DNA of 64,000 bases from Nitrospira sp. (GTDB taxonomy: Bacteria; Nitrospirota; Nitrospiria; Nitrospirales; Nitrospiraceae), in contig CP126121.1 in assembly GCA_030123625.1 (NCBI GenBank), positions 4,132,179 through 4,196,178 on the forward strand. The letters are read 5' to 3'. Below, piece after piece: positions 8,391 to 32,929 of this stretch. Every line of letters starts with the position of its first letter. Position 1 is the stretch's first letter. The position numbers were made by a program, and so were the translations under genes. Under the pieces are notes generated by a model, which ran no database searches, had not been told where the DNA came from, and saw only the letters and a list, made by a program, of their open reading frames with translations.

Positions 8391-8706
8391 CAGTTCTATT
8401 GCCGAGCCGCATACCGCAGTTTTTGTCCGTTGATGGCTCGTGATGGTTTGCCGCGATTGATCCAGCCGGAAAAGGGTCACGTGCTCCGCTACGATCGCGG
8501 GATTACCGACCAGTATAACTCTACTGTGACCTACGCCAGCATGGCGTTCTTTTAGCCTCTGGCAGCTTGATCCCACACTTCGTCCTCTGCTAATGAGGGC
8601 CACATAGGCGTATTTCAAATGAGAAACGCTCTACGTGGCAAAGGAGCGGCAGCCTCAGTTGTTCATAGATATTCGAGTGGAATCCGGCCCGGAAGGAGGT
8701 CGCCTT

Positions 8707-9438
8707 ATGAGTCATCTCGTTCGTCTGAAATATGCGACCACTCAGCAATTCGCGATCGGTGGGATCCCCGGAGGAGTGTCTTACACATACCTTCGCGTGA
8801 AGGTGAAAAATATCGCTTTCGATAAGACCGTGCAGGTTCATTACAAAGCCTCTTCGTTTCCCGACATGTGGGCAGACATGCCTCTCTCATGGATGGGCAA
8901 CTACGGCAACTATGATGTGTTCGGACGCGATTCGGGATTCACCTCAGACGAACTGGTGATCTTCGCCGCCGTGGGAGGACAAACCGAATGGGACAATAAT
9001 AATGGGGCGAATTACCGCATACAGAACTTCCACTCCGTTGTCGGCGGTCATGTCGTGCTGGACAGAGCGGTGGCACGGCAGGGCATGCAGGCCGGTGGCG
9101 GATTCACCTTCCAAACCTCCTGGTTCGAAGGCGACCTCTATGTCAACAATCTGAATTACGAAAAACGCGTCGGTGTCCGCTACACCGCCGATGGATGGAC
9201 CACCAGTGCGGACTCCGATGCAGTCTATGCCGGACCGGCTACGGAAGGCACCTATGCGACCAGTTCGGGAGTCGAACTCTGGCGCGTTCGCACGCCGGAA
9301 TACAACTACAATCATGCCTCCGACTCCTTTGAGTTTGCCGTGTACTACCAACGGCTCGACACGGGGGCTTGGTTTTGGGATAACAATTTCGGTGCGAATT
9401 ACCGACTCTCAAAGCTTTCAGGCGCAACGCTTGAATGA
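8707..9438 (+). CDS. Tandem CBM21-like carbohydrate-binding protein
   Basis: The 243-residue protein consists almost entirely of two copies of a CBM21-like fold. Each copy has the VKVKNIAFDKTVQVHY-type strand followed by a WDNN(N/F)GANYR signature, at about residues 95-105 and again near the C-terminus. CBM21 modules bind starch or glycogen, and in eukaryotes they target phosphatase to glycogen. There is no catalytic domain and no signal peptide, so the protein is probably cytoplasmic and may bind storage glycogen. The ATG at 8707 has an ideal GGAAGGAGG seven bases upstream. A GTG at 8635 is possible but has no ribosome-binding site. It stands alone, not obviously in an operon. Confidence 0.75.
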   Translation: MSHLVRLKYATTQQFAIGGIPGGVSYTYLRVKVKNIAFDKTVQVHYKASSFPDMWADMPLSWMGNYGNYDVFGRDSGFTSDELVIFAAVGGQTEWDNNNGANYRIQNFHSVVGGHVVLDRAVARQGMQAGGGFTFQTSWFEGDLYVNNLNYEKRVGVRYTADGWTTSADSDAVYAGPATEGTYATSSGVELWRVRTPEYNYNHASDSFEFAVYYQRLDTGAWFWDNNFGANYRLSKLSGATLE

Positions 9439-9660
9439 ACCGATGAATCAACTTGCCGGCAGCCTCGAATAAGAAGCCGATATCTCCGGCTATATGGTCG
9501 CCGATCATCCCACTGTCTCGTGATGGCCGAGAACCCTTATCATATATGTGTGAATGGCACAGTCCTCTTTTCCTGTTTGCATTTTGCTGAATTGGTACCC
9601 TACACTCTTTCAATCAAAAGCGATGAGAAACGTCATTTTCCTCCGCCCATATCATTTTCC

Positions 9661-10296
9661 ATGAGCCGTATCCTCCTTGTCCTACCCCCTCTTGTCGTTT
9701 TCCTGCTGGTTTTGATGTTCTTGGGTGTCCTTACCAGACCTCTCCTTGCAGCAGAGGGAAGACCGACGGAGATCTTGCCCGTCCAGAAAGCTGCACCGGC
9801 CGTGGTGGTGATTGAAACGGCCGGGAGCGAAGCCGAACTGCGGCGGCACATGCGTGTCAGAAACAATGTCGCTGAACTTTCCACCGAAACCATCCGATTT
9901 TCGGAGGCGCCGATAGGAAGCTTCGGCTTCATCGCGCCACAGTCCCTCGGAATAGCCTTGGTCACGCAAAGTCCCGATCTTGAATTGGAGCGGGTGGCTT
10001 CAACTTCTAATGCCTATGAAATCCATAAAGTCGCGGATGGCAACGGATTGGTGGTTGGATTCATGAACACCGAGGCGGCATCTCAGATTTCCCCCAGCGA
10101 ACGGCCCAAGAATCTGCGCATTGCGCTCTACTCCAACTCCGTGGATAAGGCGCCCACCATCGTCGCGGTCCCTTTAAGTAAGTTGATGGTAGACCGGATG
10201 CCGATCAGACTCGACCCTAAAAAATCAGATAGTCCCGTGATACTGAGCATGGATTTGCTGACGACGGCGAACCGGAAGTCACCAGGTAGACAATAG
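9661..10296 (+). CDS. Exported protein of unknown function
   Basis: I do not recognise this 211-residue protein. It starts with a strongly hydrophobic segment ending near PLLAAEG, which looks like a cleavable signal peptide or an N-terminal anchor. A soluble domain rich in short beta strands follows and contains no cysteine. I chose the ATG at 9661 because the signal peptide begins exactly there. The frame continues upstream to a GTG at 9520, but that stretch does not look coding. No ribosome-binding site is evident. The gene sits about 250 bp upstream of the giant multicopper oxidase, separated by a gap that contains a heptamer repeat, so co-transcription is uncertain. Confidence 0.6.
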   Translation: MSRILLVLPPLVVFLLVLMFLGVLTRPLLAAEGRPTEILPVQKAAPAVVVIETAGSEAELRRHMRVRNNVAELSTETIRFSEAPIGSFGFIAPQSLGIALVTQSPDLELERVASTSNAYEIHKVADGNGLVVGFMNTEAASQISPSERPKNLRIALYSNSVDKAPTIVAVPLSKLMVDRMPIRLDPKKSDSPVILSMDLLTTANRKSPGRQ

Positions 10297-10307: not shown

Positions 10308-10543
10308 TTAAAAAGTATGAAGAGGGACCAACGACTGTGAACGTATTGACAGTCCATGCGAAGTTGAGTATCTTTCGGCTCTCACTGTCTACAAATAGCA
10401 AACGTGAACATCACATCGTTCGGGCAGGTCGGTTAGTTGTTACCGAAACAATTTTGTCTTCCCATTTGCACATTAGTTGATGGAGCCGGCTGAGTAGCCT
10501 TCGCTGCTCACTTACACTTATGTTACGCAAGGAGGATCGGTTT

Positions 10544-13500
10544 ATGTCTCACCGTCATTCTACATTCACCCGAGTCTTGAGTGGACTCGCCGGCATTGCG
10601 CTGTTCGTTGCACCGCCAGCCCTGCTCGCTGAGACTCCATCGCATGTGGCGATGAATCATCAGATGCCCGGTTGGGCCGAACAACTGAAGGGGCAAACTA
10701 TTATTGAAAATACGATGGAAGGCCAGCCGGAGCGTACCACCATGGTCGAGCGGCAGCATCAGCGCATCATGCAACAGATGCAGCATGACGCGACCGCGCA
10801 ACGCACGGGCGGGTACTACAACGATTTGAACATGATGCACCAGTATGGTGCCGGGAATCAGGATGTGCTGCTCATGTCGAACCCCGGCACGGAACCGGTA
10901 TCAATGTCTGGCGGGCGCTGTCCAACATCCGCGCCGGTCCGGAAGTACGACATCTCGGCGATCAACGTCGAGATTTCGCTCAACATGTGGCTCGACTTCT
11001 ACCCTGGTTACATGTACGTCCTGACCGAGAACCTCGAAAAAGTGCGGGAAGAAGAAACAGCCAATCGGACGGCCCGCGAGAAGGAAGGTTATGATCCCGG
11101 AGCCGTCAAGAACGGATTGCAGAGTCAGTGGATTCAGCCGCTGGTGCTCCGAGGCAATCAGGGCGATTGCGTCAAGATGACGCTGCGCAACCAGCTGGAA
11201 GGCGGCGAGGAGGTCAGTCTCAACATTCATGGCTCCAGCATGATCGTCGCCTCCACGGGCAAGCCGGCGACGACCACGAATCCGGACAGCATCGCGGCTA
11301 AAGGGAAGGCCGTAGACCTGGAGTGGTACATTCCGCCGACTCAGCAAGAGGGAGGCCGGCAGTTCCACTCGTACAGCAACGATCGCGAGCTGACGGTCAT
11401 GGGACTGTTCGGCACGTTCGTCGTCGAACCCAAAGGGTCTCAATATCTTGACCCCTTGGGAACCGGTGAACCGACACCGATGACCAGCGGATGGCAGGCC
11501 ATCATCAAGAATGGGGCAGGGCCTGACTTCCGGGAATTCGTGATCATGTATCATGAAGTCGGGGACGAGGCGTTCCGGCCACTGAATAAGAAAGGCGACT
11601 TCATTCCTCAGCGCGATCCTTTGACCGACGTCTACCGGCCGGTGGCCCGCGCATTGAATTACCGGAGCGAGCCCTTCGGCGTCGACAATATGCAAACGCA
11701 GCACGAGTACTTCGGGTTCGAGGACGAATCCATGGCCTACAGCGCCTATACCTTCGGCGATCCGGCCACGACCATTCCTCGCAGCTACTTGGGTGATCCG
11801 GCAAAGTTCCGCCTCGTGCATGGAGGGTCGGAAGTGTTTCACTCCCACCATCCGCACGGTGGTTCGATTCGCTGGCCGAGAAGTCCACGCGCCATCGACG
11901 AAATGCCTTTGTGGCATGCGGCCAAGAACGGGCCGGTCAAATATCCCGTGATTCGGATGAAGTCCGACCGCGTGGACGTGGAAGTCATCGGACCGTCCGA
12001 GACCATGGACCTGGAAACCGAATGTGGCTCGGGTCTCTGCCAGCAGTTGGCCGGCGACTTTCTGTTCCATTGTCACGTCGCGCACCATTACATCGCGGGG
12101 ATGTGGGGTTATTGGCGGGTATACAATACGCTGCAGCAGGGAGGGGATCACAACGATGTGATGCCGGATCTGCGCGAGCTGCCTGACCGGGCTGGCCGTA
12201 TTCATGCCGGTATTACTTCCGATCAGCTTATTGGTCGAACCGTGGATTGGTTCGGAAAGACCTTCACCATCGTCAAGGACGGGAAGACGAATTGGAAGGC
12301 ATCACCTGCCGTCGTCAACGTGAAGGATTGGGTCAACATGCAGCTGCCGCCGCAGGGACAGCCTGGACATCAGAAGGACGAGCGCGCTCAAACCCGATCC
12401 TACGACGCGAGTGTGTTGGATTGGGCTTGGCAGGGTGATCGCGCGATGACCGAACGCGAAAACACCGTAGACAATCCGAGGTACAAATCGACAGCTCCCG
12501 GCAACCGATTGCCGATTCTTTTTGAGAGCGCCACAGGCAAGATTGCCTGGCCGCATTTGAAGCCGCATTTCGGCCGTCGTGTGATCTTCTCTCAGAATCA
12601 CAACCCTGCTCCATGGTTGGATATGATTCACCTTGAGGACGACGGGTTGCCCAGTTCCTATCCGGCGAAGCCGGGAGAGAATGGACGCTGGAGCATCTGC
12701 CCCGAGAACGCGGGCTCCAAGAAATACAACGTGCATTTCATTCAGACCCCGATGACCTTGTCCGACAAGCAGGGCGATACGCCGGCCATCGTGGACAAGG
12801 ACGGGCTGATCTATGTGCTGCACGAGGAAGAAGCGCAGACCAGGAAGAGCGACATCAAGTATCCGCTGGTGGTGCGCGCCAATATTTATGATTGTGTCGA
12901 CTGGATGTTGACCAGCGAGTGGCCAGACGACGACCATATCAACTTCCAGGCATCGAAGATCAATTCGCACTGGCACTTCTTGCAGTTCGACAATCAATCG
13001 TCCGATGGCGTGATCACCGGCTTTTCCTATGAACAATCGGTGCGTCCGTTCACGATGCTGGAGAAGAAAGTGAAAAAGGGCCTGCCTGTGCCGATGAATA
13101 CCGTGTTCACCAAGCCGGCAAAGAAGGGCGACCGGGTCATTACGGTCAAAAATGCCGCCCAATACCATCCGAACGTGGAACTCCTGATTGGAGCGGACAA
13201 CGTCGAAGGCAACGAGATCGGTCGGGTCAAATCGATCCAAGGCAATCAGATCACGCTGTATCGCCCGCTGAAACATGCTCATCCGGCCAACGATATCGTG
13301 ACGGTGGAGTTCGTCCGGCAGCGGTTCTGGGTGGATTCCGATGTCGGGACGGTTTTCTGGCACGACCACGCGCTGGGGCGTGTCACGTGGCCTCACGGGG
13401 GCTTCGGTACCCTCATCGCCGAGCCGGTCGGTTCGACCTACCATAATCCTAAGACCGGCAAAGAGATCCGGAGCGGTCCTCTTGCCGACATCCGAACAGC

Positions 13501-15367
13501 GGAGCCGGTCGGGTATGGGGTGAACGGAAGCTTCCGGGAGCTGCTGGTGCAACTCAATGACACCGTGCCGCATACAGTAAACATCGTCACGGCGGGCAAT
13601 CCGCCGGGGCAACCGATCGAAGTGGCGTTGGAAGCCGGGAAAACCGTATCCTTCCCGATGCCGGAAAAAATTCCTATGACGCCGATGCCCTTCCTCAACG
13701 GGGGTACACATACGACGGGCGGCGGATTGAATTTCAAAGCCGAACCGATCTCGAGTCGCTTGGCCTTGAATCCTGATTCGTCCAAGTTGTTCAGCAGTGC
13801 CGTGCACGGCGACCCCTATACGCCGATGGTACGAGCGTATCTGGGCGATACCGTGGTGTTCCGGCTGCTTCAGACCATGGCCAACGAGACGATGGTCTGG
13901 ACGGTTTCAGGCCATACCTATCTGACCGAGCGCTATGCGGGCGACGCGAACCGGAAGAATTCGATCCATATCGGCATTGCCGAACGGTACGATCTGGTGG
14001 TGCCGCAAGCGGGTGGGCCGCGGCTCCAGCCGGGAGACTACATCCATTTCAACGGCCGCGGGTCCAAGTTCTCGGAGGGTGCCTGGGGCATCATGCGGGT
14101 ATTGGACAAGGAGGTGCCCGACCTGCAAAAGCTCCCCGCCGGGTACAGCCGTCGAAATGAGATTCCGAAGCCGCTGGAGGTCTGCCCGGCGGACGCTCCG
14201 GTGAAAAGCTTCAACGTCGTGGCATTGGATTATCCTGCCATGAAGTTGAACCCGAAGGCGCCGGACGCCATTGAGGTCGACTTCGAACGGACCATCCAGA
14301 TGGTCAATCCGAACGCAAAGATTTACGCCTTGGAAGAAGATGCGACGAGGGTCGCCGGGGGAGTCCAGCCGATGCCCCTGACGTTGCGGGCCAATGTGGG
14401 GGACTGTCTCAAGGTGAAGCTGACGAACCGGATGAAGGAGAGCCGAGCGTCGTTCTCCGCCATCGGCTTGGTGTTCGACCCCAAGGATTCGCTCGGTGCG
14501 AACGTGGGGAACAATCCCGGCGATCAGACCATCGCACCGGGAGAGAACCGCACCTATACGTACTACGCGGACCCGTTCCTGGGAGAAACCGCCTCGTTGG
14601 TGTGGGACTGGGGCAATGTGATGAGCAACCCGCGAAACGGACTCTATGGAGCGGTGGTCATCGGCCCGAAGGGGGCCCAGTACCGAGATCCGAAAACCGG
14701 TGCGGATATTTCGACGAAAAACAGCTGGGTGGCCGATGTCATTGTCGATCGGACGATTCAGGGTTACGAGCATCGCGTGAATTATCGCGACGCGGCTCTG
14801 TTCTTCCAGGACGAGGACAATATCATCGGGACGAGTTTCATGCCCTATATACAGAACACGGCGGGCTTGACGGCGGTCAACTACCGTGCGGAACCTTATA
14901 AATTCCGGGAAGAAAAGGGCTGCACCCTCGGCAAGGTGTTCCAACCCTGCGTTGTGGACAAACCGGAGGATCCGGTGACGCCGATCATCGAGGCGCATGC
15001 CGGAGATCCCGTTCGGATCCACGTGTTCGGCGCGAGCAACGAACAGAACGGCATGTTCAGCGTCGAACGCCATGAATGGCCGATTGAGCCGTTCATGCGG
15101 GGAGCCGACATGATCAGTGTGGTAGAGTTCTCCGGATCGGAGGCTCTGGACGCGTTCCTTCCGAGCGCCGGGGGTCCGTTCCGCCTGCCGGGTGATTATG
15201 TCTGGAGCAATCAGCGGTTGCCCTACTCGCAGTCTGGACAGTGGGGGTATCTGCGGGTATTGCCGGCTGGAGATCAGCGAGTATTGCCGCTTTCCAGTGC
15301 CGCCACAGGAACGAAGAACGCGTCTGTTGATGAACCGACGTATGTCGTTCCAGTAGCAAGGCAGTAA
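10544..15367 (+). CDS. Giant multicopper oxidase, 1607 aa, exported
   Basis: The protein has a signal peptide (ALFVAPPALLA-ET) and several cupredoxin domains. Copper motifs visible in order are VFHSHHPHGG (432-440), FHCHVAHHYIAGMW (509-521, the HCHxxxHxxxGM type-1/type-3 element), NSHWHF (808-812) and VFWHDHAL (938-944) with His951. All four motif classes of a multicopper oxidase are therefore present, but the C-terminal-type pair precedes the N-terminal-type pair. Further cupredoxin-like domains up to residue 1600 lack obvious ligands. Substrates of very large MCOs include Mn(II), Fe(II) and Cu(I), and none can be assigned here. The ATG at 10544 has AAGGAGG eight bases upstream. An ATG at 10520 precedes that site and is unlikely. 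A strong terminator follows. Confidence 0.85.
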   Translation: MSHRHSTFTRVLSGLAGIALFVAPPALLAETPSHVAMNHQMPGWAEQLKGQTIIENTMEGQPERTTMVERQHQRIMQQMQHDATAQRTGGYYNDLNMMHQYGAGNQDVLLMSNPGTEPVSMSGGRCPTSAPVRKYDISAINVEISLNMWLDFYPGYMYVLTENLEKVREEETANRTAREKEGYDPGAVKNGLQSQWIQPLVLRGNQGDCVKMTLRNQLEGGEEVSLNIHGSSMIVASTGKPATTTNPDSIAAKGKAVDLEWYIPPTQQEGGRQFHSYSNDRELTVMGLFGTFVVEPKGSQYLDPLGTGEPTPMTSGWQAIIKNGAGPDFREFVIMYHEVGDEAFRPLNKKGDFIPQRDPLTDVYRPVARALNYRSEPFGVDNMQTQHEYFGFEDESMAYSAYTFGDPATTIPRSYLGDPAKFRLVHGGSEVFHSHHPHGGSIRWPRSPRAIDEMPLWHAAKNGPVKYPVIRMKSDRVDVEVIGPSETMDLETECGSGLCQQLAGDFLFHCHVAHHYIAGMWGYWRVYNTLQQGGDHNDVMPDLRELPDRAGRIHAGITSDQLIGRTVDWFGKTFTIVKDGKTNWKASPAVVNVKDWVNMQLPPQGQPGHQKDERAQTRSYDASVLDWAWQGDRAMTERENTVDNPRYKSTAPGNRLPILFESATGKIAWPHLKPHFGRRVIFSQNHNPAPWLDMIHLEDDGLPSSYPAKPGENGRWSICPENAGSKKYNVHFIQTPMTLSDKQGDTPAIVDKDGLIYVLHEEEAQTRKSDIKYPLVVRANIYDCVDWMLTSEWPDDDHINFQASKINSHWHFLQFDNQSSDGVITGFSYEQSVRPFTMLEKKVKKGLPVPMNTVFTKPAKKGDRVITVKNAAQYHPNVELLIGADNVEGNEIGRVKSIQGNQITLYRPLKHAHPANDIVTVEFVRQRFWVDSDVGTVFWHDHALGRVTWPHGGFGTLIAEPVGSTYHNPKTGKEIRSGPLADIRTAEPVGYGVNGSFRELLVQLNDTVPHTVNIVTAGNPPGQPIEVALEAGKTVSFPMPEKIPMTPMPFLNGGTHTTGGGLNFKAEPISSRLALNPDSSKLFSSAVHGDPYTPMVRAYLGDTVVFRLLQTMANETMVWTVSGHTYLTERYAGDANRKNSIHIGIAERYDLVVPQAGGPRLQPGDYIHFNGRGSKFSEGAWGIMRVLDKEVPDLQKLPAGYSRRNEIPKPLEVCPADAPVKSFNVVALDYPAMKLNPKAPDAIEVDFERTIQMVNPNAKIYALEEDATRVAGGVQPMPLTLRANVGDCLKVKLTNRMKESRASFSAIGLVFDPKDSLGANVGNNPGDQTIAPGENRTYTYYADPFLGETASLVWDWGNVMSNPRNGLYGAVVIGPKGAQYRDPKTGADISTKNSWVADVIVDRTIQGYEHRVNYRDAALFFQDEDNIIGTSFMPYIQNTAGLTAVNYRAEPYKFREEKGCTLGKVFQPCVVDKPEDPVTPIIEAHAGDPVRIHVFGASNEQNGMFSVERHEWPIEPFMRGADMISVVEFSGSEALDAFLPSAGGPFRLPGDYVWSNQRLPYSQSGQWGYLRVLPAGDQRVLPLSSAATGTKNASVDEPTYVVPVARQ

Positions 15368-15401
15368 CTCAATCGCCCTCACAGGGCAATCAATAGAGAG
15401 A

Positions 15402-15434
15402 AGAGGGGGAGGCCTGCGCTCCCCCTCTTTCTTT
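15402..15434 (+). terminator. Rho-independent terminator after the giant MCO gene
   Basis: A perfect 10-bp stem (AGAGGGGGAG with CTCCCCCTCT) with a 7-base loop is followed directly by a T-rich run (TTCTTT). It lies 35 bp after the MCO stop and would separate the MCO transcript, fully or partly, from the downstream cupredoxin operon. Confidence 0.85.
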
Positions 15435-15489
15435 ATGGCAGGCATCTGGTACGATGGGAGAAACCGACCACAATTGAGGTGACAATGCC

Positions 15490-16395
15490 ATGAAAGCAAC
15501 GTTGGTTTCAGCTCTGCTCCTCTTGACCTGTGCTTCATCAGCCTGGTCCTATCAAGAAATTGAAGTGAAGGACGGCGGAACGATCACGGGTAAAGTGCGG
15601 ATGACGGAAGGGAAGCCGGTCCCCAAAGGGTTCAATCTCATTACCTTTCCGGATCCAGTTTATTGCGGAAGAATCTCCACCGGGACCGGATGGCGGATTT
15701 TAGACGAGTTTAGCGTGTCGGCAGATCGAGGCCTCAAAGACACCGTTGTGCTGTTGATCAATGTGGCGAAGGGGAAGCCGTTCACATTCGTGCCGCCTAC
15801 CATTGAGGCTCGCGACTGCCGGTTCCTGCCTTTCGTGACCGTGGTGAAGAACCGAGCCGAGGTGCGGGTCGTCAACATGGATCCGGTGTTTCATGACATT
15901 CAGGCGTACGAGACATCAGAACTGGGTCCGCGCGTATTATTCAACACACCCCTTCCGATGAATCCCATGCACGTGCGTGACGCCGGGTCTGAGAGCCACG
16001 AGCATTTGGCCGGACAACCGATGATTGAAGTCGTCAAGATGACGAAGAATCGTCGGTTTTTCGTCATGCAATGCGGATTTCATGCCTACATGGAAAGCTG
16101 GGGGTTCGCCGTGGACAATCCCTATTACATGGTGACCGATAAGGATGGGCAGTTTTCGCTGTCCGATGTGCCTCCCGGCGAATATAGTTTGATGGCGTGG
16201 CATCCCGGAGTGGGGATGGTGCTTGAAAAAAACGTATCGGTTCCAGCGAAGAAGACCGTGCAGATAGATTTCACGTTCGAATCTCCCAAAGGGCGCCGAA
16301 GCGTCCACGAAATCTCGGAAAATCCGCACTTCGGGTTGGAGGCGCTGGGAAAATCGACGGAGATTCGTCCGACTCTTGAACTGCAAACGCCATAA
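15490..16395 (+). CDS. Cupredoxin plus carboxypeptidase-regulatory-domain protein, copy A
   Basis: The 301-residue exported protein has a signal peptide ending AWS-YQ. It contains a cupredoxin-like region in which His135 (FHDIQ) and the MQCGFHAYM element (Cys195, His198, Met201) supply a complete type-1 copper ligand set. DNPYYMVTDKDGQFSLSDVPPG follows in shorter stretches, the start of a carboxypeptidase-regulatory beta-sandwich at about residues 210-265. The likely role is periplasmic blue-copper electron transfer. Pairing with the upstream MCO is inference from proximity. The ATG at 15490 has GAGGTG upstream. The next gene is a clear paralogue with the same layout, so this pair arose by tandem duplication. 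Confidence 0.75.
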   Translation: MKATLVSALLLLTCASSAWSYQEIEVKDGGTITGKVRMTEGKPVPKGFNLITFPDPVYCGRISTGTGWRILDEFSVSADRGLKDTVVLLINVAKGKPFTFVPPTIEARDCRFLPFVTVVKNRAEVRVVNMDPVFHDIQAYETSELGPRVLFNTPLPMNPMHVRDAGSESHEHLAGQPMIEVVKMTKNRRFFVMQCGFHAYMESWGFAVDNPYYMVTDKDGQFSLSDVPPGEYSLMAWHPGVGMVLEKNVSVPAKKTVQIDFTFESPKGRRSVHEISENPHFGLEALGKSTEIRPTLELQTP

Positions 16396-16434
16396 AGCTG
16401 TTTGTTTGAACGTCCAAAGAGGAGAGGATTGCCG

Positions 16435-17367
16435 ATGAGGGGACATGTCCGTTGCATTGTCATCCTCAGCGCCGTCCTTGCCTGGGCATTGGTCCTTTCG
16501 TCGGTCACGTCGGCAAACGCCTATGAAGTCATAGATGTACAGCATGGTGGAACCATCGAAGGAACGGTGACTCTCGATGGACCGGTGCCGGAGCCGAAGG
16601 GGTTTAATCTGATTACCTTTCCGGATCCTGCCTATTGCGGCCGCATCTCCAACGGCAGCGGGTGGCGCTTGTTGCATGATTTTGCCGTCGGTCATCAAGG
16701 AGGATTGAGGAACGCCATTGTGCTCCTGGAAGGAGTCGAAGCCGGGAAACCGTTTGAGGTTTCTGTTCCTCTGATCGAAGCCCGCGATTGCATGTTTCAG
16801 CCGTTCATGACCATTGTCCGTAACGGACATGCAGTCGAAGTCATCAACATGGATCCCGTTATGCACGACATTCAAGGCTATGAAACGTCGCCGGAAGCGG
16901 GGGCGCGGGTGTTGTTCAATACCCCTTTAGTCATGAATCATCAGCATCGGCGAGGAGATCTCCGCGCGACGCACGACCATGCGCCGGGAGCCTCGCTGGT
17001 CGGGCCGATTTATTTGAACAAAGGGCGACGGACGTTCTACATGCAATGCGGCTTCCATGCCTATATGGAAAGCTGGGCCATGGCCGTGAACAATCCCTAT
17101 TATGCCCTGACGGATGCCGAGGGGAGGTTCTCGATTGCCGGCATTCCCCCCGGTACGTATCAACTGGCGGTCTGGCACCCGAAGACAGGACCTGGAACGA
17201 CACGGACGGTTGTGGTGCGACCGGATGGAACGCTTCGAGAGCAACTGTTGCTGCCTGCTCCCAAGGGAAATCGAACTGCGTATAAGGTCACGGACAATCC
17301 TCGGTTCGGGCCCGAGTCTTTAGGGTATTCCATCGATATCCAGCCGTTGCTCGAACGTCAGCGGTAA
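16435..17367 (+). CDS. Cupredoxin plus carboxypeptidase-regulatory-domain protein, copy B
   Basis: The 310-residue paralogue of the preceding gene has a signal peptide ending SANA-YE. It keeps the same type-1 copper ligands: His144 in MHDIQ, and Cys205, His208 and Met211 in MQCGFHAYM. The same PKGFNLITFPDP and YCGRIS segments occur near the start. It differs by a histidine-rich loop around residues 170-182 (NHQHRRG ... ATHDHAPG) that could bind additional metal. I chose the ATG at 16435 because GGAGAGG lies seven bases upstream. The gene is 39 bp after copy A and 6 bp before the next gene, within one operon. Confidence 0.75.
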   Translation: MRGHVRCIVILSAVLAWALVLSSVTSANAYEVIDVQHGGTIEGTVTLDGPVPEPKGFNLITFPDPAYCGRISNGSGWRLLHDFAVGHQGGLRNAIVLLEGVEAGKPFEVSVPLIEARDCMFQPFMTIVRNGHAVEVINMDPVMHDIQGYETSPEAGARVLFNTPLVMNHQHRRGDLRATHDHAPGASLVGPIYLNKGRRTFYMQCGFHAYMESWAMAVNNPYYALTDAEGRFSIAGIPPGTYQLAVWHPKTGPGTTRTVVVRPDGTLREQLLLPAPKGNRTAYKVTDNPRFGPESLGYSIDIQPLLERQR

Positions 17368-17373
17368 TGCCCG

Positions 17374-18009
17374 ATGCATCAGCGCATGGCGAGGAGGATC
17401 CGGAGTGCGATGCTCCTTGTGTGCATCGGTGTGATGGCGCCCTGTGTGCCGGTCTCGAACGTAGCAGGCGGCGATACGCTTCCCTCCGAGCCTGAATTTT
17501 CCGGCACGCTCATCAAACGAGTCAACGGCAAGAAATCTCTGGCCCACGTGTATGCCAAAGGTATGCGCATCAGGTTAGAGTACCGACATGCCGTTCGAAC
17601 AGAGTGGGGGTTTGCGGCGATCGAAATCGTCCGACCGGACTTGGCCGAGGTCTGGTATGTCCTTCCCCAACAGAAGCAATTGCTGGTCCTGCCGATCACG
17701 GACGATACTCTGTCGATACATCCTGAGTTGGTCGGAGAAACATACAGGATAGCCGTCGGTGACGCGACGGCGGCTGGTCGTGCCGCACGGTTGTTTGATG
17801 TTCAAACGAATCATGACGGGCACCTTGAGCGGTTCTACCAATGGGTCGATGCGGAGACTGGGATTATGCTCAAGCTGGTCAGCCAGGACCGTGATTGGTC
17901 GCTCGAGTATGAGCGGATCCGAATATCGCCCCAACCCAGCATGTATTTCGAGGAGCCGAGGGGATACAGGAAGCGCCGAGGCGAGACCGGCCAGCGGCGT
18001 AGGGAATAG
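17374..18009 (+). CDS. Exported protein, DUF4412/outer-membrane-lipoprotein-sorting-like
   Basis: The protein of about 211 residues has a signal peptide and a mainly beta soluble domain. Segments such as FSGTLIKRV, GMRIRLEYR and LAEVWYVLPQQKQ resemble the half-barrel of DUF4412 and LolA-type proteins, which carry hydrophobic ligands across the periplasm. The assignment is tentative. The stop is followed four bases later by the next gene, so the two are coupled. The ATG at 17374 is 6 bp after the previous stop. ATGs at 17386 and 17410 are in frame, the last having GAGGAGG about 12 bases upstream. The C-terminus is very basic (RKRRGETGQRRRE). Confidence 0.6.
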   Translation: MHQRMARRIRSAMLLVCIGVMAPCVPVSNVAGGDTLPSEPEFSGTLIKRVNGKKSLAHVYAKGMRIRLEYRHAVRTEWGFAAIEIVRPDLAEVWYVLPQQKQLLVLPITDDTLSIHPELVGETYRIAVGDATAAGRAARLFDVQTNHDGHLERFYQWVDAETGIMLKLVSQDRDWSLEYERIRISPQPSMYFEEPRGYRKRRGETGQRRRE

Positions 18010-18013
18010 AGAA

Positions 18014-19375
18014 ATGATCCTCCCGTCCATACGACACGTTGTCGTCGCATTGTGTGCCCTGGCTGGGGTTTTCTCTCCTATGCTTGAGCCGGTATTTGGC
18101 GGGACGGAATCCAACCTTCGGAAGATTCAAACGCTGTACGACAATCAGGAATACCAAAAGGCCCTGGAAGAGGTGGCCAAACTGGACAGGGAGACGTCCG
18201 GCGCACCGGAAGTTCATCGGCTTAAGATTTTCACACTGCTGAAGCTTGGCAACCCGAAAGATGCGCTGACGGAATATGACGAGCTTGTGCAGGTGTTGAA
18301 GCGCGAGGATTCATCCATCCTTCGCGAGATCGCGCTGGGATTTGTCCTCGTCTTGACGAAGGACATGCGCGAACAAATGCGAGGTGTGGCCTATACCGCC
18401 CTCAAGGAATGGCACAGTTCCGAGTCGATTCCCTATTTGGAAGACGGGCTCAGCGACGGATCCGGTCTTGTCCGAGCCCTAGCGGCCGAAGGGCTTGCGA
18501 GACTGGATGCGGGACGCCGCTCGATTCGATTCCGAAAGGCCCTGGAAGATCAGGCGGCGTTGGTGAAGGAAGCGGTACTCAAGGGGTTTGCCAAATCTGA
18601 TGATACGTCGGTCATTCCGCTCGTCGAGCCGGCCCTGAACGATCCTGAGGTTCGGGTACGAGTCGCAGCCGCCGGAGTGCTCTGTCATTTGAAACGACCC
18701 AAGGGTTGCGAATTACTCTTGCGGCACGCGAAAGCGCCGAATCCGGATGAGCGTGCCGCGGCGATTCGTGCCTTGATTGATCGGCAGTCATCAGAAATTT
18801 TGCCGATTCTCATCGAGTCGAGCGAACACAAACAGCCGTCGGTGCGCGGGGCTTCCGCGACAGCGTTCGCCCATGCGCCCACTGCCGAAGCCGTCACTGC
18901 GCTGGCACGCCTGCTGAGGGACCCGCTCCCTCCCGTGCGGATCGCCGCAGCCGTCAGCCTGGGGCAGCTGCGCGGATTCGACGTCCGTACGCCATTGCAT
19001 GGAGCTCTTGATGACCGCGATCTCCCCGTCAGGGCATTCGTCATCGGTGCATTACTGGAACAAGACGAACGGTATGAGATCGTGGCCGGTCCGATCCAGG
19101 CTCTCGCGAATGCGAAAGAGCCGGCCGTTCGTGCCGCCGTGGCACGAGCGTTGGGGCATGCCGTAGAATCGAATCGCGAACCGGCACGGTCGGCCTTGAT
19201 GCTGCTGGTTCAGGATACAGTGCCTCGCGTGAGGATCGCGGCGATCAAATCCTTGGCAAAGATTGATGATAGGCGCGCGATTCCGCTCCTCAAACAGGGC
19301 CTGCACGATGAGGATGATGCCGTTCGCGCAACGGCCGGAGGAGCGCTGTTGAAAATCGTGCTGCCGAAAGAATAG
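18014..19375 (+). CDS. HEAT-repeat exported protein
   Basis: The 453-residue protein has a signal peptide (VFSPMLEPVFGG region). A short TPR-like helical start at about residues 35-90 is followed by roughly eight to nine HEAT repeats of the DPEVRVRVAAAGVL type up to the C-terminus. HEAT solenoids are protein-protein scaffolds. Secretion plus operon position suggests a periplasmic scaffold for the copper proteins encoded upstream, which is inference only. I chose the ATG at 18014, four bases after the previous stop, because the signal peptide begins there. A longer frame from 17759 overlaps the upstream gene and is an artefact. Confidence 0.75.
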   Translation: MILPSIRHVVVALCALAGVFSPMLEPVFGGTESNLRKIQTLYDNQEYQKALEEVAKLDRETSGAPEVHRLKIFTLLKLGNPKDALTEYDELVQVLKREDSSILREIALGFVLVLTKDMREQMRGVAYTALKEWHSSESIPYLEDGLSDGSGLVRALAAEGLARLDAGRRSIRFRKALEDQAALVKEAVLKGFAKSDDTSVIPLVEPALNDPEVRVRVAAAGVLCHLKRPKGCELLLRHAKAPNPDERAAAIRALIDRQSSEILPILIESSEHKQPSVRGASATAFAHAPTAEAVTALARLLRDPLPPVRIAAAVSLGQLRGFDVRTPLHGALDDRDLPVRAFVIGALLEQDERYEIVAGPIQALANAKEPAVRAAVARALGHAVESNREPARSALMLLVQDTVPRVRIAAIKSLAKIDDRRAIPLLKQGLHDEDDAVRATAGGALLKIVLPKE

Positions 19376-19483
19376 GGTCGGGACGTGTCGTTGTACAGCG
19401 TTCATCGACATGGTAGGACCGAAATCACGTTCCATGGCGATGGTTCCATGAATTCGTTCTGATTTTGTCGAAGGAGTGTACCT

Positions 19484-20359
19484 ATGGGTGTTCACATGTT
19501 CGCTGTGGCGGCGTTGTTGTTGTGCTTCGGATTGGATGCGTCCGTTCTGTTCGCGAATGAACAACCGGCTCATGATCCGGTCGGGTCGCCGACGGGCAAA
19601 GACGGTGCACCAATGATCGTGGTCCCGGCCGGCTCGTTCCCGATGGGTGTTCCGGAGGGAGCCCGTGACGGAGGACGCGATGAATATCCACGCCATGACG
19701 TGTTCGTCGACACATTTGCCATCGACACATTTGAAGTGACAAACGGCCGTTATCTGGAATTCGTAAAGTCCACAGGGCATCGCGTTCCGCAAAATCCAAG
19801 AAATCCGACCAGAAATCTCTGGCAAGGAGAGAGCATCACGGATGAGTTGATCGATCGACCCGTCATCAATGTCGACTGGTTTGATGCCGAGGCCTACTGC
19901 AGATGGGCGGACAAACGACTCCCCACTGAAGCCGAATGGGAAAAGGCGGCTAAAGGGACGTCCGATAGGCGATTCCCTTGGGGGAATGTCGAACCGACCC
20001 CCAAGCATCTCAATTATAATCAACGGTGGATCGGGGAGAGGACTCTCATGCCCGTCGGAAGTTATGAGGCGGGCAAGAGTCCGTATGGAGTGTATGACAT
20101 GGCCGGCAATGTGTGGGAGTGGGTCAATGACTGGTACGATGCCCGATACTATGAGAAGAGCCCGAAAAAGAATCCGAGAGGTCCCGACACAGGCATAAAG
20201 AAAGTGATTCGCGGCGCGGGCTGGCAAAACGAGACGCCGACGGTCCGCATTTTTACTCGCGTGGAGAGCGATCCAACGGTTCGGAATGAGTCCACGGGAT
20301 TTCGTTGCGCGACCAGTGGACCGATGAAACAGTCAACAGGAAATCCGTCTACTCCATAA
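19484..20359 (+). CDS. SUMF1/formylglycine-generating-enzyme-fold exported protein
   Basis: The 291-residue exported protein is mostly a SUMF1 domain: PAGSFPMG near residue 46, a TNGRYLEFVKSTGH segment, LPTEAEWEKAAKG, YDMAGNVWEWVNDWY and a C-terminal STGFRCA. True formylglycine-generating enzymes carry a reactive cysteine pair after the RGGSF motif. Here the equivalent stretch (RGAGWQNETPTVRIFTR) has no cysteine, so sulfatase-activating oxidase activity is unlikely and a binding or structural role fits better. AAGGAG lies just upstream of the ATG. It is the last gene of the cupredoxin operon and converges on a second SUMF1-fold gene. Confidence 0.8.
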   Translation: MGVHMFAVAALLLCFGLDASVLFANEQPAHDPVGSPTGKDGAPMIVVPAGSFPMGVPEGARDGGRDEYPRHDVFVDTFAIDTFEVTNGRYLEFVKSTGHRVPQNPRNPTRNLWQGESITDELIDRPVINVDWFDAEAYCRWADKRLPTEAEWEKAAKGTSDRRFPWGNVEPTPKHLNYNQRWIGERTLMPVGSYEAGKSPYGVYDMAGNVWEWVNDWYDARYYEKSPKKNPRGPDTGIKKVIRGAGWQNETPTVRIFTRVESDPTVRNESTGFRCATSGPMKQSTGNPSTP

Positions 20360-20391: not shown

Positions 20392-21291
20392 CTAAGGACT
20401 CTCGATCATCAATGATCGCGCGCATCGGAAACCGATTGTCGCGGCACGTTGATCCGGAGAGGCACCGCCTCGGGTCGCCGCTCGCAGCATGACGGGTCGG
20501 CTTTTCCAAGAACCGCCCCGAACGCTCTTGTAACGCCCGGTGGATGGTCCCGATGGATTACGCTCCGGCATATAGGCGTAGTAGTCGAACCCGAACCAAT
20601 CCTGTACCCATTCGGCAATGTTGCCCGCCATATGGTGCAGACCATAAGGACTTTTACCGTCCTCATAGGAATCTACTGCCGCGAGAATGGGGATTTCATG
20701 GACATGGTGCTGCCCGAACATCGCGAGTGTGGGGTTGGGAATTGCTTCGCCCCATGGATAAGGAATCCCTTCGGCCCCTCGCGCCGCTTTCTCCCATTCA
20801 GCCTCGGTCGGTAGTCTGGCCTGTTTTGCCGCACAGAGATCGTTCGCCTCTGTCCATGTGACATAGAGCGCAGGCCAGCGGGATAGGATCTGGTCGGAGA
20901 TGAAGTGGACGGTGATGACGTGCCAGAGGAGTTTCTGCAGCTCGTCCGAGGGATGAATCTTTTGTCTCTGCAGAAAGGCCAGGTATTCTCCAAGGCTTAC
21001 TTCATCTCGATTTATCTCATAGGCATCCAACCAGACTCGATGTTGAGGCAGTTCCGTATCGTCAAACTGCGTCCGGCCCCCGTAGGGATCATCATCGACT
21101 CTGTTGCTTCCGAGCAAGAACGTTCCGGCTGGCACGGTCATCATCGGCGACGGCCTGGCCAGCGTGACGATCTCCGTTACATGGCGTGCGAGTTCCGGTG
21201 AAGGTTGAGAGCCAGCCACTGCGATGGAGGGACTTTCAATAATGACCAGGAGGAATAGCGTGATGACCGGCCATACGCAATAAGGCGGCAT
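20392..21291 (-). CDS. Second SUMF1-fold exported protein, convergent
   Basis: The 299-residue protein has an N-terminal signal peptide (PSIAVAGS) and a SUMF1 domain: PAGTFLLGSNR, RLPTEAEWEKAARG, YGLHHMAGNIAEWVQDWFG, RGGSW and IGFRCAR. Like its convergent neighbour, it lacks cysteines in the stretch after RGGSW (KSRPVMLRAATRGG), so it is probably not an active formylglycine-generating enzyme. The gene ends 32 bp from the end of the other SUMF1 gene, with no clear terminator between them. Its promoter region faces the HtrA-like protease and contains a 16-bp tandem repeat. Sequence identity between the two SUMF1 proteins looks only moderate, so they are not a recent duplication. Confidence 0.8.
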   Translation of the reverse strand: MPPYCVWPVITLFLLVIIESPSIAVAGSQPSPELARHVTEIVTLARPSPMMTVPAGTFLLGSNRVDDDPYGGRTQFDDTELPQHRVWLDAYEINRDEVSLGEYLAFLQRQKIHPSDELQKLLWHVITVHFISDQILSRWPALYVTWTEANDLCAAKQARLPTEAEWEKAARGAEGIPYPWGEAIPNPTLAMFGQHHVHEIPILAAVDSYEDGKSPYGLHHMAGNIAEWVQDWFGFDYYAYMPERNPSGPSTGRYKSVRGGSWKSRPVMLRAATRGGASPDQRAATIGFRCARSLMIESP

Positions 21292-21493: not shown

Positions 21494-22528
21494 ATGAGCC
21501 TCTGCCGCCTCTTTGCAGCCCGCTACCTGTCTTTTCATATGTTCGGTGTATGCGTCGCCACGACAATGCTCAGCCTCCCGCTCAACGCTGAAACGACGCC
21601 GGTCAGCCAGGACGGGTTTCTTCGAGCGAGACAGGTGACCGTCGGAATTCTCGCAGATACACACGATCAGCGAATGCCGGAGAAGCCCGGAAAGGTTATC
21701 GTACGAGGAACCGGCGTTCATCTGCGAGACGGCTATGTCATTACCGCGCGACATACCGCAGAGAAACACGGGCTTGCAACAGGTCCCGTTATTCAGAAAC
21801 GGATACACGTACTCACGAATGACCTCCATGAACTCCCTGCCGATCTTGTGAGCGAGAATGCGTTCATGGATGTCGTCTTGTACCGAGTCGGCGAGCCGCA
21901 TCGCTCCAAATTGCAGGCCGGGACATCTTTTGCCGCGGCTGAGGCATCATCCGGGATGGAAATCTTCACCGTCGGTTATCCTCTTGGTTGGGGCCCGACC
22001 ATGGCCTTTGGGAAAATCGGCAATACCAACACCTTCCTGCAAACCGTGGATACCCGTCTCATCCAGACCGATCTTTCGGCCTGCAGTGGAAATTCAGGAG
22101 GTGGGCTGTTCAATGCGCAAGGAGAACTTGTCGGCATCGTGCATGCCGTGATCCAAACCGATAAAGACGAAACCCAGGCCCATTGCAGTCGCATGACCTT
22201 TGCCATTCCAGGGACCCTTGCGGAGCGCATCATCAATGCATCTCTGTCAGGAAAGCCGCTTGCCTTCTCAAGGCTTGGGGTCCAGATGACGTCGGTAAAA
22301 GACGGCACGAAGTTGCGCGTTGCCGTGAAGGAAGTCGCTGAACCGGCAAAATCTGCGGGTATTCAGAAACACGATATCTTGCTGGCCATCGAGAGTACGG
22401 AGATTGTCGATGGAGCCCAGCTGAAAAATTTCCTCATCGAGTGGACGAACCCGGGCCAAGAGGTGTCGGTCAAAGTGCGTCGAGTCGATGTTGATTTGAC
22501 GTTCCATGTCGTGCTTGGCGGTGGGTGA
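21494..22528 (+). CDS. HtrA-like trypsin-fold serine protease with one PDZ domain
   Basis: The 344-residue exported protein has a trypsin-like domain with a complete triad: His87 in ITARHTA, Asp126 in FMDVVLY and Ser201 in SGNSGGGLF. A single PDZ domain spans residues ~255-344. This is the layout of DegS/HtrA periplasmic quality-control proteases, although the catalytic domain is divergent and carries an extra cysteine next to the active serine (ACSGNS). AAAGGAGC precedes the ATG at 21494. It is probably monocistronic: a hairpin follows the stop and a repeat-containing promoter region precedes it. The substrate is unknown. Confidence 0.8.
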   Translation: MSLCRLFAARYLSFHMFGVCVATTMLSLPLNAETTPVSQDGFLRARQVTVGILADTHDQRMPEKPGKVIVRGTGVHLRDGYVITARHTAEKHGLATGPVIQKRIHVLTNDLHELPADLVSENAFMDVVLYRVGEPHRSKLQAGTSFAAAEASSGMEIFTVGYPLGWGPTMAFGKIGNTNTFLQTVDTRLIQTDLSACSGNSGGGLFNAQGELVGIVHAVIQTDKDETQAHCSRMTFAIPGTLAERIINASLSGKPLAFSRLGVQMTSVKDGTKLRVAVKEVAEPAKSAGIQKHDILLAIESTEIVDGAQLKNFLIEWTNPGQEVSVKVRRVDVDLTFHVVLGGG

Positions 22529-28751: not shown

Positions 28752-28896
28752 TTTCCGGCCTTTGCTTGCCATCCTTGTCGATCTATCAAGGATCACAAGA
28801 GAGAGTCAAGACAGCAGTCCGCGTCGCCACAATTCAAGTTCAGACAGGACCTTGCCGGTCGAAAAGTTCACCATATACACGTAATGCGATCGCGTT

Positions 28897-29088
28897 GTGC
28901 AACGAGGACGATCGCACCACGGATGGCAGGACAATCTGGCCGAGAGCGTCCTCTATTTAGAGGCTCCATGGGAGGTACGAGTTGAGGCGCTTGGTCGGAT
29001 GAAAGATTTGATCGTCCTGCTTGAGCGGGAGGCCAAAAAATATTTGGATAAACTCGAAAGTAAACTGGTTTCGGCAACGAAAAAGTAA
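28897..29088 (+). CDS. Possible small charged helical protein
   Basis: A 63-codon frame starts with GTG. Its second half (EVRVEALGRMKDLIVLLERE and onward) reads as an amphipathic, lysine- and glutamate-rich helix that looks protein-like. There is no good ribosome-binding site, although an internal ATG at 29002 also falls in frame. It may be a genuine micro-protein or the tail of a decayed gene. No family is recognised. Confidence 0.3.
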   Translation: MQRGRSHHGWQDNLAESVLYLEAPWEVRVEALGRMKDLIVLLEREAKKYLDKLESKLVSATKK

Positions 29089-29107
29089 GGCCTCCGGTCA
29101 GCGAAGC

Positions 29108-29157
29108 GGTAAACCCCGGTAAAAGACGGTAAAGAGCGGTAGAGGACGGTACTACCA
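29108..29157. repeat. Five-fold 10-bp periodic GGTA repeat
   Basis: GGT occurs at exactly 10-base spacing at 29108, 29118, 29128, 29138 and 29148, in the contexts GGTAAACCCC, GGTAAAAGAC, GGTAAAGAGC, GGTAGAGGAC and GGTACTACC. The units are degenerate but the phase is exact, close to one helical turn, as in arrays of phased protein-binding sites. The array lies between a doubtful small ORF and a minus-strand small gene. Confidence 0.7.
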
Positions 29158-29233
29158 GATGCGCAGTTCTCGCTAGTGTTCACAAGGGGCTCGAAGCTTT
29201 TCGCGGGGTTCGAGTTTTTCCATTTCGGGATTT

Positions 29234-29425
29234 TCAAGACCGCTGCTTCCCGCGTTTGGGATTGTCATACACCAACGCTGCACGTTCCTGCTCTGACCAG
29301 AGTCGCACGCCATAGACTTCTTGTAATTCCAACTTGGCTTTCTCGTCGCCCTTTCTCGCCTTTCGAAACAGACTCTGGCGCTGCATGTCTTCTTCCTCTT
29401 GACTCAAGGACCACTGTGCTCCCAT
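29234..29425 (-). CDS. Small hydrophilic protein of unknown function
   Basis: The 63-residue, highly charged protein (acidic SQEEEDMQRQ start, basic middle KARKGDEKAKLELQ) has a strong AAAGGAG ribosome-binding site about seven bases before the ATG, which argues for real translation. The fold is probably helical with a short coiled coil. The motif RKARKGDEKAKLEL resembles the start of Sel1/TPR-like helices, but the protein is too short to assign. It is transcribed leftward away from the next small gene, and 213 bp of unassigned sequence separates them. Confidence 0.6.
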   Translation of the reverse strand: MGAQWSLSQEEEDMQRQSLFRKARKGDEKAKLELQEVYGVRLWSEQERAALVYDNPKRGKQRS

Positions 29426-29638
29426 TTCGAACTCCTTTGTTGTAATTTGCCTTCCCGTAACGGCATCTTAAACGGAGGCGGGTTTGTACATGAATTGGAT
29501 TCCCAATGCAAGCTGTGAACAGGGTACTCCGATTACCGAGAGAAAAAGCGGAGTGGAAAGCGTAATGCACTAATCCGGCAAACGGCGGAAAACGACAATT
29601 AACGGTACACTGCGTTTGAAGACGCTGCCCCCGACTTA

Positions 29639-29974
29639 CTACTCCCTTGGTGTCGCCTCCAAGCGGGGAACTCCTTCGATCACGCAAGTCTGCTCAGGAC
29701 GGTCCAGGTCACGTTCAAGATTGCCGAATGGCTCCACCAGATCGTGTAGGAAGTCCTCCAACAACTCACAGGCGTCTGCTTGCGTGGCAAACGGCCCATA
29801 CCGCCGGGGATACATCCCGGTGACTTCGATTCGTACAAACCAGCCCTCACGTCCGACCTCATCCTTTCCGTGAAACAGCCAGTCTTCGGAGACTGCGCGC
29901 TCGCGATAGTGATGAGGCGGGGATGCAGCACCCTGTTGCTGAGAAACTTTGCGAAAAAGCGAGGCAATGCCCAT
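29639..29974 (-). CDS. Small cytoplasmic protein of unknown function
   Basis: The 111-residue protein begins MGIASLFRKVSQQQG and contains DWLFHGKDEVGREGWFVRIEV and YGPFATQADACELLEDFLHDL in shorter recognisable pieces. These suggest a small alpha/beta domain of the kind that contacts nucleic acid or another protein. I recognise no family. The ATG at 29974 has GGGAGGG five bases upstream. The frame continues a further 34 codons upstream but has no ribosome-binding site there. No obvious operon partner is visible. Confidence 0.6.
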   Translation of the reverse strand: MGIASLFRKVSQQQGAASPPHHYRERAVSEDWLFHGKDEVGREGWFVRIEVTGMYPRRYGPFATQADACELLEDFLHDLVEPFGNLERDLDRPEQTCVIEGVPRLEATPRE

Positions 29975-30619
29975 CAATACCCTCCCTTGTTGCGTGTACG
30001 TTACGCGGCCAGAAAATTCCCAATAAATTAAGCAAGATTTTTGACATGTCCCGCCCATCGAACGGGGCGGTATCATATGGGTGCTTATGTTGTGGTGTCC
30101 AGATTGTCATGGACTGAGTGAACCGATCGAGCGAAGAGCCACCCTGTCATCTGTGACAAGGTCTTCGGGATCGCGACGAGATGGAAGCAGCCGGCTGGAA
30201 CACAAAAAAGCTCTGCCCTCTTCCGAGGGCAGAGCTTTCTCGCACAGCGCAAGGGGCATATTTTGTTCAGTAGTGTCTCACCTACCACTTCAAAACATTC
30301 CCCACGCTGTGTACTGGTCACTCTATCGGCTCCGTGTCTCGGCCAGTACTGTGCAAATCCCTAGAGTAATCCACGGGAGAGATGAACAGTTGCCATAGAA
30401 AATACATACGCAATCGGTACTCTTGTAGGAATGACATGAGTGAAGAAGCAGGTCAGGAATTGCTGAAGAAGTACCGGGAAAATCGTGAGCGCTGACAAGA
30501 CCTGCATGCGCTCTATTGCGCTCCCCCTATGTCTTTTTCTAGTATGAAGCTTCCAAGTCTTCGCTAGGATTGCACGAGCCGGCTCAAACTTTCTTTACGC
30601 ATTGGAGGAGGGCGAAATT
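29975..30619. other. Gene-poor stretch with terminator and unassigned ORFs
   Basis: The 645 bp hold a strong stem-loop (30207-30238) but no gene I can support. A plus-strand frame from 30087 begins MLWCPDCHGL, a CxxC pair, but runs through the terminator stem and loses protein character. A 19-codon frame at 30436-30495 (MSEEAGQELLKKYRE) is too short to call. The last 80 bases must contain the promoter of the YtxH-like gene. Confidence 0.45.
30207..30238. terminator. Strong bidirectional stem-loop terminator
   Basis: A perfect 14-bp stem (AAAGCTCTGCCCTC with GAGGGCAGAGCTTT) with a TTCC loop is preceded by AAAAAA on the left and followed by TTT on the right, so it could terminate in both directions. 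No clear gene ends immediately beside it, which suggests an unrecognised small transcript upstream on either strand. Confidence 0.75.
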
Positions 30620-30928
30620 ATGCGCAGCGAAACCTATAGCAACGAGGGAGGCAAGGAGGTTATTGCTTTTGTAGCTGGAGCATTGATTGGGGCAGGTGTT
30701 GCCATGCTCTTGACTCCGCAACAGGGCACAGAGCTGCGCGGTCGTCTGCGCGACTATGCCAATCGTGCGAAGAATGATCTACTTGATATGGGGCAAGAGG
30801 CATGGGACACCGCCGTGGGACGACGCACGGAATATTATAAGAAGGGAGAAGAGGCCGTTCGCGACGCGGGACATTCGGCGAAGGAATTTGCGAACCAGGT
30901 CCAAGACGTGTCCGAAGAGAGACAATGA
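30620..30928 (+). CDS. YtxH-domain small membrane protein
   Basis: The 102-residue protein has one N-terminal membrane helix (VIAFVAGALIGAGVAMLLTPQQG) followed by a basic, helical, LEA-like tail (LRGRLRDYANRAKNDLLD ...). This is the YtxH/general-stress layout. Family members are anchored in the inner membrane and are induced by stress, and their molecular role is unknown. The ATG at 30620 has a GGAGGAGGG site upstream. A TTG at 30602 precedes that site and is rejected. It is probably monocistronic. Confidence 0.8.
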   Translation: MRSETYSNEGGKEVIAFVAGALIGAGVAMLLTPQQGTELRGRLRDYANRAKNDLLDMGQEAWDTAVGRRTEYYKKGEEAVRDAGHSAKEFANQVQDVSEERQ

Positions 30929-31166
30929 TAACGATCAGATACACTTGCGCTACATCAGCGGGTGAGGGCCATAATGGATCGCCTTCCTTCTAGGCCTCGA
31001 CCCCCAATCCTGCATAATTCAAAGAACAGCATAGACGGCAACCATGGTTGGATTCCTAGGGCTTCCGTGTCCGGACTGTCGAGAGCTGATGATGTAGGTT
31101 TTACGCATGCTCCAAGTAGGAGTGCTGTCATGGACCGGTATGCGTTACTGGGAATGATGGAAACCA

Positions 31167-32154: not shown

Positions 32155-32301
32155 TATCCGCCCCCGATCCATTAACGATGTTGTGATCGGTCTGGTGACC
32201 GAATAAGGCTACATTGGTGCGAGTGGATGATCGATTTCGGCTCACAGCTATGCAAAGCCGTACGTGACTCATATCACCCGATGATTCCCCAGGCCCAAAT
32301 A

Positions 32302-32383: not shown

Positions 32384-32465
32384 AAGATTATTCCATCAAA
32401 TGCTTTGATAGATGGCAAGGCCGTAGTTTTCCTAGTCTGACGACTGCTGAGCGTGGCAATCGCGG

Positions 32466-32822: not shown

Positions 32823-32929
32823 GCTCTCTCCTTTCATGGAAAGTCTGAATGGTGGGGAACGGTAATACAGGGGTGAGAGTGAGAGCTACTATCCTGGCAG
32901 GTGGAAGAACCGAACTAAAGAGGCATTCA

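Follow-up and report, generated by a model that had tools for sequence, protein, structure and literature searches.

Among nitrite oxidisers, Nitrospira are the most widespread, and their electron route to O2 is unsettled because most of them lack a canonical haem-copper oxidase (PMC6606698, PMC10579370). The locus described here raises the question of whether a giant multicopper oxidase (MCO) and the cupredoxins encoded behind it belong to that route. It lies in a 64-kb stretch of DNA, hereafter the window, from a 4.69-Mb genome on one contig. Judging by six amoC matches in this genome, the source organism is a comammox Nitrospira; its closest named relatives by the window MCO are Nitrospira MAGs at 94-97% identity.

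The core of the locus is a set of six genes on one strand (10544-20359, +), found among the window's open reading frames where the first-pass annotation had placed them. They encode the MCO, the cupredoxin proteins CupA and CupB, a LolA/RseB-like protein, a HEAT-repeat protein, and a SUMF1-fold protein. The spacing is short, as described earlier, with gaps of 39, 6, and 4 bases inside the block and wider ones of 122 bases (containing the terminator) between MCO and CupA and 108 bases between the HEAT and SUMF1 genes. The signal peptides ascribed to all six proteins are visible by eye as signal-like N-termini. The features are as follows.

9520..10296, +, conserved gene of cluster c14, 5' of the MCO, from neighbourhood comparison; no Pfam match assigns it to a family, and its true start is probably further in
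10346..10374, +, sigma-70-like promoter match TTGACA-17-TATCTT, 5' of the MCO; a consensus match at 10/12 positions
10544..15367, +, giant multicopper oxidase, 1607 aa (open reading frame, ribosome-binding site, Pfam, homologues)
11840..12103, +, putative copper motifs C (HxxHxH, H441/H444/H446) and D (HCHxxxHxxxxM, H517 to M528)
12968..13369, +, putative copper motifs A (HxH, H817/H819) and B (HxH, H948/H950)
15401..15429, +, conserved hairpin and T-run in the MCO-CupA gap, a terminator or attenuator (sequence, recurrence)
15490..16395, +, CupA, predicted cupredoxin inside a carboxypeptidase-regulatory-like domain, ligands H135, C195, H198, M201 (Pfam, alignment, model)
16435..17367, +, CupB, a CupA paralogue, 50% identical (comparison); alternative TTG start at 16402
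17374..18009, +, periplasmic LolA/RseB-fold protein, P0004 (Pfam, model)
18014..19375, +, exported HEAT-repeat protein with a TPR-like N-terminal part (Pfam, synteny)
19484..20359, +, exported SUMF1/FGE-fold protein, P0006, an optional member (Pfam, synteny)
20392..21291, -, second SUMF1/FGE-fold protein, a conserved neighbour within the same genus
21494..22528, +, HtrA/DegP-like serine protease, a conserved neighbour within the same genus

The sequence AAGGAGG eight bases 5' of the ATG at 10544 supports the MCO start chosen in the first-pass annotation. A second, upstream ATG lies at 10520 (1615 aa from there), and the residue numbers given for the MCO (P0001) run from this alternative start. 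The terminator that the MCO was said to possess is a hairpin, AAGAGGGGGAGG-CCTGC-GCTCCCCCTCTT followed by TCTTTATGG, 33 bases past the stop codon. A similar hairpin and T element follows 51/55 class-I MCO genes, so the element is not a product of chance. Hairpins of the GGGGGAG...CTCCCCC type with a T-run recur 3' of MCO genes in several classes, mostly 25-40 bases past the stop.

The MCO belongs to the multicopper oxidase superfamily, with four histidine motifs and a match to PF07732 (49.1 bits, cut-off 21). By sequence, the trinuclear site would be supplied half by motifs C and D, which also hold the type-1 ligands, and half by motifs A and B. The chain carries one complete type-1 and trinuclear ligand set, with C/D before A/B. 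All 12 ligands are kept in at least 134 of 135 homologues (each C and D residue in at least 134, those of A and B in 135), a set that includes some near-duplicates and the window's own gene (L002). The MCO is present in 146/147 Nitrospiraceae genomes and is a core gene of the family. In a 296-genome sample of the phylum, it occurs in 114 genomes of the taxonomic class and weakly in three others. A plasmid search also returned distant giant MCOs, such as one on a Streptomyces plasmid (31% identity over 91% of the query) that is followed by copC and has no Cup gene beside it.

The source genome carries a further MCO paralogue, 55% identical, at approximately 2.201-2.212 Mb (L066:10-10851), where it lies 3' of an amoC gene and ahead of LolA-like and Cup genes. 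It was considered as a comammox-specific enzyme and rejected as such: genomes such as G005 and G132 carry it (88-89%) without an AmoC match, and the comammox genome G081 lacks the close class.

The best solved relative of the MCO is MnxG (PDB 9bxa, E 9e-82), which introduces the main rival to a redox role. In this explanation, the MCO is a Mn(II) oxidase of the MnxG superfamily whose periplasmic Mn(III) guards against reactive oxygen species or forms oxides, and the Cup proteins supply copper or act as MnxE and MnxF do in Bacillus. We regard it as somewhat unlikely. The window MCO resembles Bacillus MnxG in belonging to the giant MCO superfamily and in placing the C/D motif pair ahead of A/B; it differs in its length (1607 aa vs a 1227-residue chain) and in having no MnxE or MnxF neighbours within sight. 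Its score against the MnxG equivalog model (NCBIfam NF041487) is 141.9 bits, far below the cut-off of 3100, and it is best classed from this as a superfamily member rather than an MnxG equivalog. The window also contains a separate MnxG relative with a patchy distribution (27/147 family genomes), whereas the MCO discussed here is near-universal, which suits a housekeeping role.

Regulation bears on Mn(II) oxidation in two directions. In Pseudomonas putida, McoA and MnxG do oxidise Mn and are controlled by a two-component system with sigma-54-type promoters, and solitary class-III relatives of the window MCO have a sigma-54 response regulator upstream in 18/25 loci, a likeness to P. putida mnxS/mnxR. 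The window MCO, however, has no adjacent sigma-54 regulator; a sigma-54 promoter 5' of it was rejected, as the 31 -24/-12 matches across the window are no more than chance would give (29 expected). Giant exported MCOs with four copper motifs are likewise known from P. putida GB-1 (McoA and MnxG) and Leptothrix (MofA), but their reported SCO/SurA/ABC or mofB/mofC neighbours are absent from the window set. For the Nitrospira enzyme, Luecker et al. 2013 (PMC3578206) proposed that it resembles MnxG of Bacillus SG-1 and helps to defend against reactive oxygen species, in agreement with a Mn-oxidising function.

CupA and CupB are type-1 cupredoxins by fold and by His-Cys-His-Met ligands, which bears out the identity first proposed for them. 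In an alignment of 194 Cup proteins, H135, C195, H198, and M201 are kept in at least 193, and two further cysteines are also essentially invariant; together with the MCO counts, this answers the concern that ligand residues might vary among orthologues. The predicted CupA structure (pLDDT 92.8) superposes on copper cupredoxins over residues 80-188, with Z of approximately 10 to Cupredoxin_1 and plastocyanin. It also contains a carboxypeptidase-regulatory-like domain (PF13620, 42 bits, cut-off 32.3; 1qmu, Z 11.5), to which some 80 residues scattered over 5-246 are matched. Because the cupredoxin residues lie within this span, we read the model as a carboxypeptidase-regulatory-like domain into which a type-1 copper domain has been inserted. 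Cup proteins share fold and H-C-H-M ligands with plastocyanin, auracyanin, AcoP, and Bacillus anthracis Cupredoxin_1, and differ from these electron-transfer cupredoxins in this enclosure. Sequence-profile searches of Cup or the LolA-like protein against the PDB returned little besides the carboxypeptidase-like domain.

The Cup family occurs in 114 genomes of the taxonomic class in the phylum sample, and weaker-scoring, more distant members are found in 30 Nitrospirota genomes outside it. On Sinorhizobium meliloti pSymA (L211), a Cup-like carboxypeptidase-regulatory protein approximately 31% identical to CupA adjoins a SCO-family gene; the Cup homologues there lie near SCO, cbb3 oxidase, and sox genes, and no MCO is present at that locus.

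These neighbours are relevant to a second explanation, namely copper handling and assembly. Here, the MCO oxidises Cu(I) like CueO, the Cup proteins are storage proteins for copper or insertion factors serving copper or haem enzymes, for example the bd-like oxidase and the nitrite oxidoreductase (NXR) complex, and the LolA/RseB, HEAT, and SUMF1 proteins are chaperones. The SCO-family gene in Sinorhizobium and the bd-like oxidase adjoining the cluster in relatives agree with such a role, as does the superposition of the Cup carboxypeptidase-like domain on the hydrazine dehydrogenase complex of Kuenenia (chain Y, Z 10.9). The giant size and core status of the MCO are unlike CueO, and H-C-H-M ligands are typical of electron-transfer cupredoxins. 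One Nitrospira bd-like oxidase has been proposed to bind copper (PMC6606698); even so, we consider copper handling improbable.

The following counts are raw tallies of gene order within one taxonomic class. A Cup gene lies within the next three genes of class-I MCOs in 50/51 loci, including those of N. defluvii (L163) and N. moscoviensis (L141), so that a cupredoxin operon regularly standing apart from any MCO was not what emerged. Among the 39 class-I loci with room, the HEAT gene is downstream in all 39 and the LolA gene in 28; a bd-like oxidase is present in 25/33 class-I loci with 9.9 kb of sequence. The usual order by Pfam is MCO-Cup-Cup-LolA-HEAT-Cup-O-methyltransferase-DUF420-PCP_red-membrane protein-bd-like oxidase, the last matching subunit I (PF01654, 61.3 bits, profile positions 3-249 of 418). 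Cup is also near the MCO in class II (7/7), class IV (5/5), class 17 (5/5), and an outer class (10/12). The MCO-cupredoxin cluster is common to essentially all sampled nitrite-oxidising Nitrospira and their class. Of the six families, MCO, cupredoxin, and HEAT recur in synteny across genera and families within one class; SUMF1 and LolA come and go.

The window itself departs from the usual arrangement. Its MCO shares 88% identity with class-III genes from a different genus (L082), and the genes around it correspond to those at class-I loci within its own genus (L067: CupB 86%, SUMF1 81%, MCO 74%). The simplest reading is that, in this lineage, the class-I MCO was exchanged at its site for a class-III one. 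In the source genome, the block is also split: its CupC-to-bd-like half lies at 3.04 Mb, 1.1 Mb from the MCO half, and CupA and CupB stayed with the MCO while CupC went with the bd-like block. Class-III MCOs of the window's lineage keep Cup in 12/12 loci (one being the window's own copy). In N. moscoviensis, N. defluvii, and others, the class-III MCO is solitary, with Cup at 0/23 loci, which indicates that an MCO can work without Cup.

The solitary copies, the conserved terminator between MCO and Cup, and the retention of CupC with the bd-like block together suit a third explanation, in which the two sets of genes are adjacent yet functionally separate, the cupredoxins serving a bd-like/NXR membrane complex and the MCO acting independently. 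This is quite unlikely in our judgement: Cup lies closely 3' of the MCO in nearly every class, including those with no bd-like oxidase nearby (II, IV, class 17, and the outer class), and CupA and CupB remained with the MCO when the block split.

Linkage to nitrite oxidation is seen in several relatives. In N. defluvii, the bd-like oxidase of the block is followed by a pair of SUMF1 genes and another bd-like oxidase; two cytochromes c come next, and then an NxrC-like protein that combines ethylbenzene-dehydrogenase and cytochrome c domains. The block lies approximately 60 kb from nxrAB. In N. moscoviensis (L121), nxrAB adjoins an MCO, and nxrA and/or nxrB is within 7 kb of an MCO there and at L074, L081, L082, L090, L120, and L130. 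The N. defluvii queries used score as type-II DMSO reductase family subunits, and their naming as NxrA and NxrB rests on family score, length, and known Nitrospira gene content. Genes for bd-like_3, alt_NxrC_2, and cytochrome c are among the 40 most strongly transcribed in N. moscoviensis (PMC6606698). The first-pass statement that the set contains no cytochrome is correct for this rearranged genome only; the linked bd-like oxidase, c-type cytochromes, NxrC-like protein, and nxrAB of relatives make an envelope redox partner plausible.

We favour the reading that the cluster forms a copper redox module in the periplasm, connected to the respiratory chain of nitrite oxidation, with a probability of roughly 0.4. 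CupA and CupB would carry single electrons between the membrane or NXR complex and the type-1 copper of the MCO, which would relay them to the trinuclear site by way of Cys518 and the two histidines that flank it, reducing O2 to water in the periplasm. The MCO would then serve as an auxiliary O2-reducing branch or as an O2 or redox buffer, rather than as the main terminal oxidase. The near-universal MCO, its complete ligands, the cupredoxin fold, and the Cup/HEAT/bd-like linkage argue for this redox module. The conserved terminator, the solitary class-III MCOs, and the distant Cup relatives in Sinorhizobium and in Nitrospirota outside the class argue against it. In addition, MnxG, the nearest solved relative, oxidises Mn(II), and we know of no electron uptake from cupredoxins by it. 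The periplasmic chain first suggested for the locus, with its hypothetical HEAT scaffold, is partly supported by ligands, synteny, and linkage, and is weakened by the class-III MCOs that stand alone. A more specific version, which we think unlikely, is a copper-only O2-reducing side branch in which the cupredoxins draw electrons from the NXR/NxrC/cytochrome c/bd-like complex and the MCO reduces periplasmic O2; if true, the Nitrospiria would possess an oxidase for scavenging O2 or balancing redox state of a kind that is not known from other nitrifiers.

In the redox module, the LolA/RseB, HEAT, and SUMF1 proteins would help with assembly or docking. The model of P0004 adopts a LolA/RseB fold (TM approximately 0.6 to MucB/RseB and 0.60 to LolA 8cgm), so the fold of the "LolA/DUF4412-like" protein stands, but no Pfam match exceeds its cut-off (RseB, 18.6 bits vs 22.3). 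P0006 has the formylglycine-generating-enzyme fold it was assigned (PF03781, 203 bits) and, by eye, lacks the catalytic Cys pair: its cysteines occur only in AYCRW and GFRC, with none in the GAGWQNETPTVRIF stretch, which we take to be the place expected for that pair.

The cluster is not new as a whole, as some of its parts have been described since 2013. The accessible text of Luecker et al. (PMC3578206) reports, around NXR in N. defluvii and Nitrospina gracilis, a periplasmic MCO and cupredoxin-like proteins together with bd-like oxidases and cytochromes c; the MCO-Cup-HEAT order, ligand completeness, Cup architecture, class-wide distribution, and paralogue swap do not appear in that text. 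To our knowledge, the class-wide gene order and counts, ligand census, Cup architecture, conserved terminator, and paralogue swap are new here. Two novel MCOs have also been listed in the core genome of Ca. Manganitrophaceae (PMC9040806). A conserved core copper module tied physically to the nitrite-oxidation machinery is a testable candidate for an unassigned part of the chain; alternatively, almost every nitrite-oxidising Nitrospira may carry in it a hidden trait for metal cycling.

Several minor observations concern the surroundings. A protein at 8635-9438 contains a CBM21 starch-binding module (77 bits), unexpected beside a copper cluster. An Rfam scan of 8000-34000 found no element apart from one tRNA (tRNA-Ser, 27.8 kb), and 28797-33100 is approximately 4.3 kb without any open reading frame of at least 150 aa. 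On the minus strand at 33101-35657 are two tandem pyridine-nucleotide-disulphide oxidoreductases (NDH-2/SQR-like); their N-termini are closely alike, and the second protein is far shorter than the first (289 vs 426 aa). At L202-L205 (G093 C33, G050 C43), several MCO genes of different classes form arrays, and between them lie Cup, SUMF1, and HEAT genes as well as a histidine kinase-like gene and a sigma-54 response regulator. The patchy MnxG relative of the window, P0008 (1940 aa, approximately 42 kb, region 42088-49910), scores 962.7 bits against the MnxG model, also below the cut-off of 3100. The next gene encodes a beta-propeller/lactonase-like protein, a type that has been reported from the mnxG operon of P. 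putida as well.
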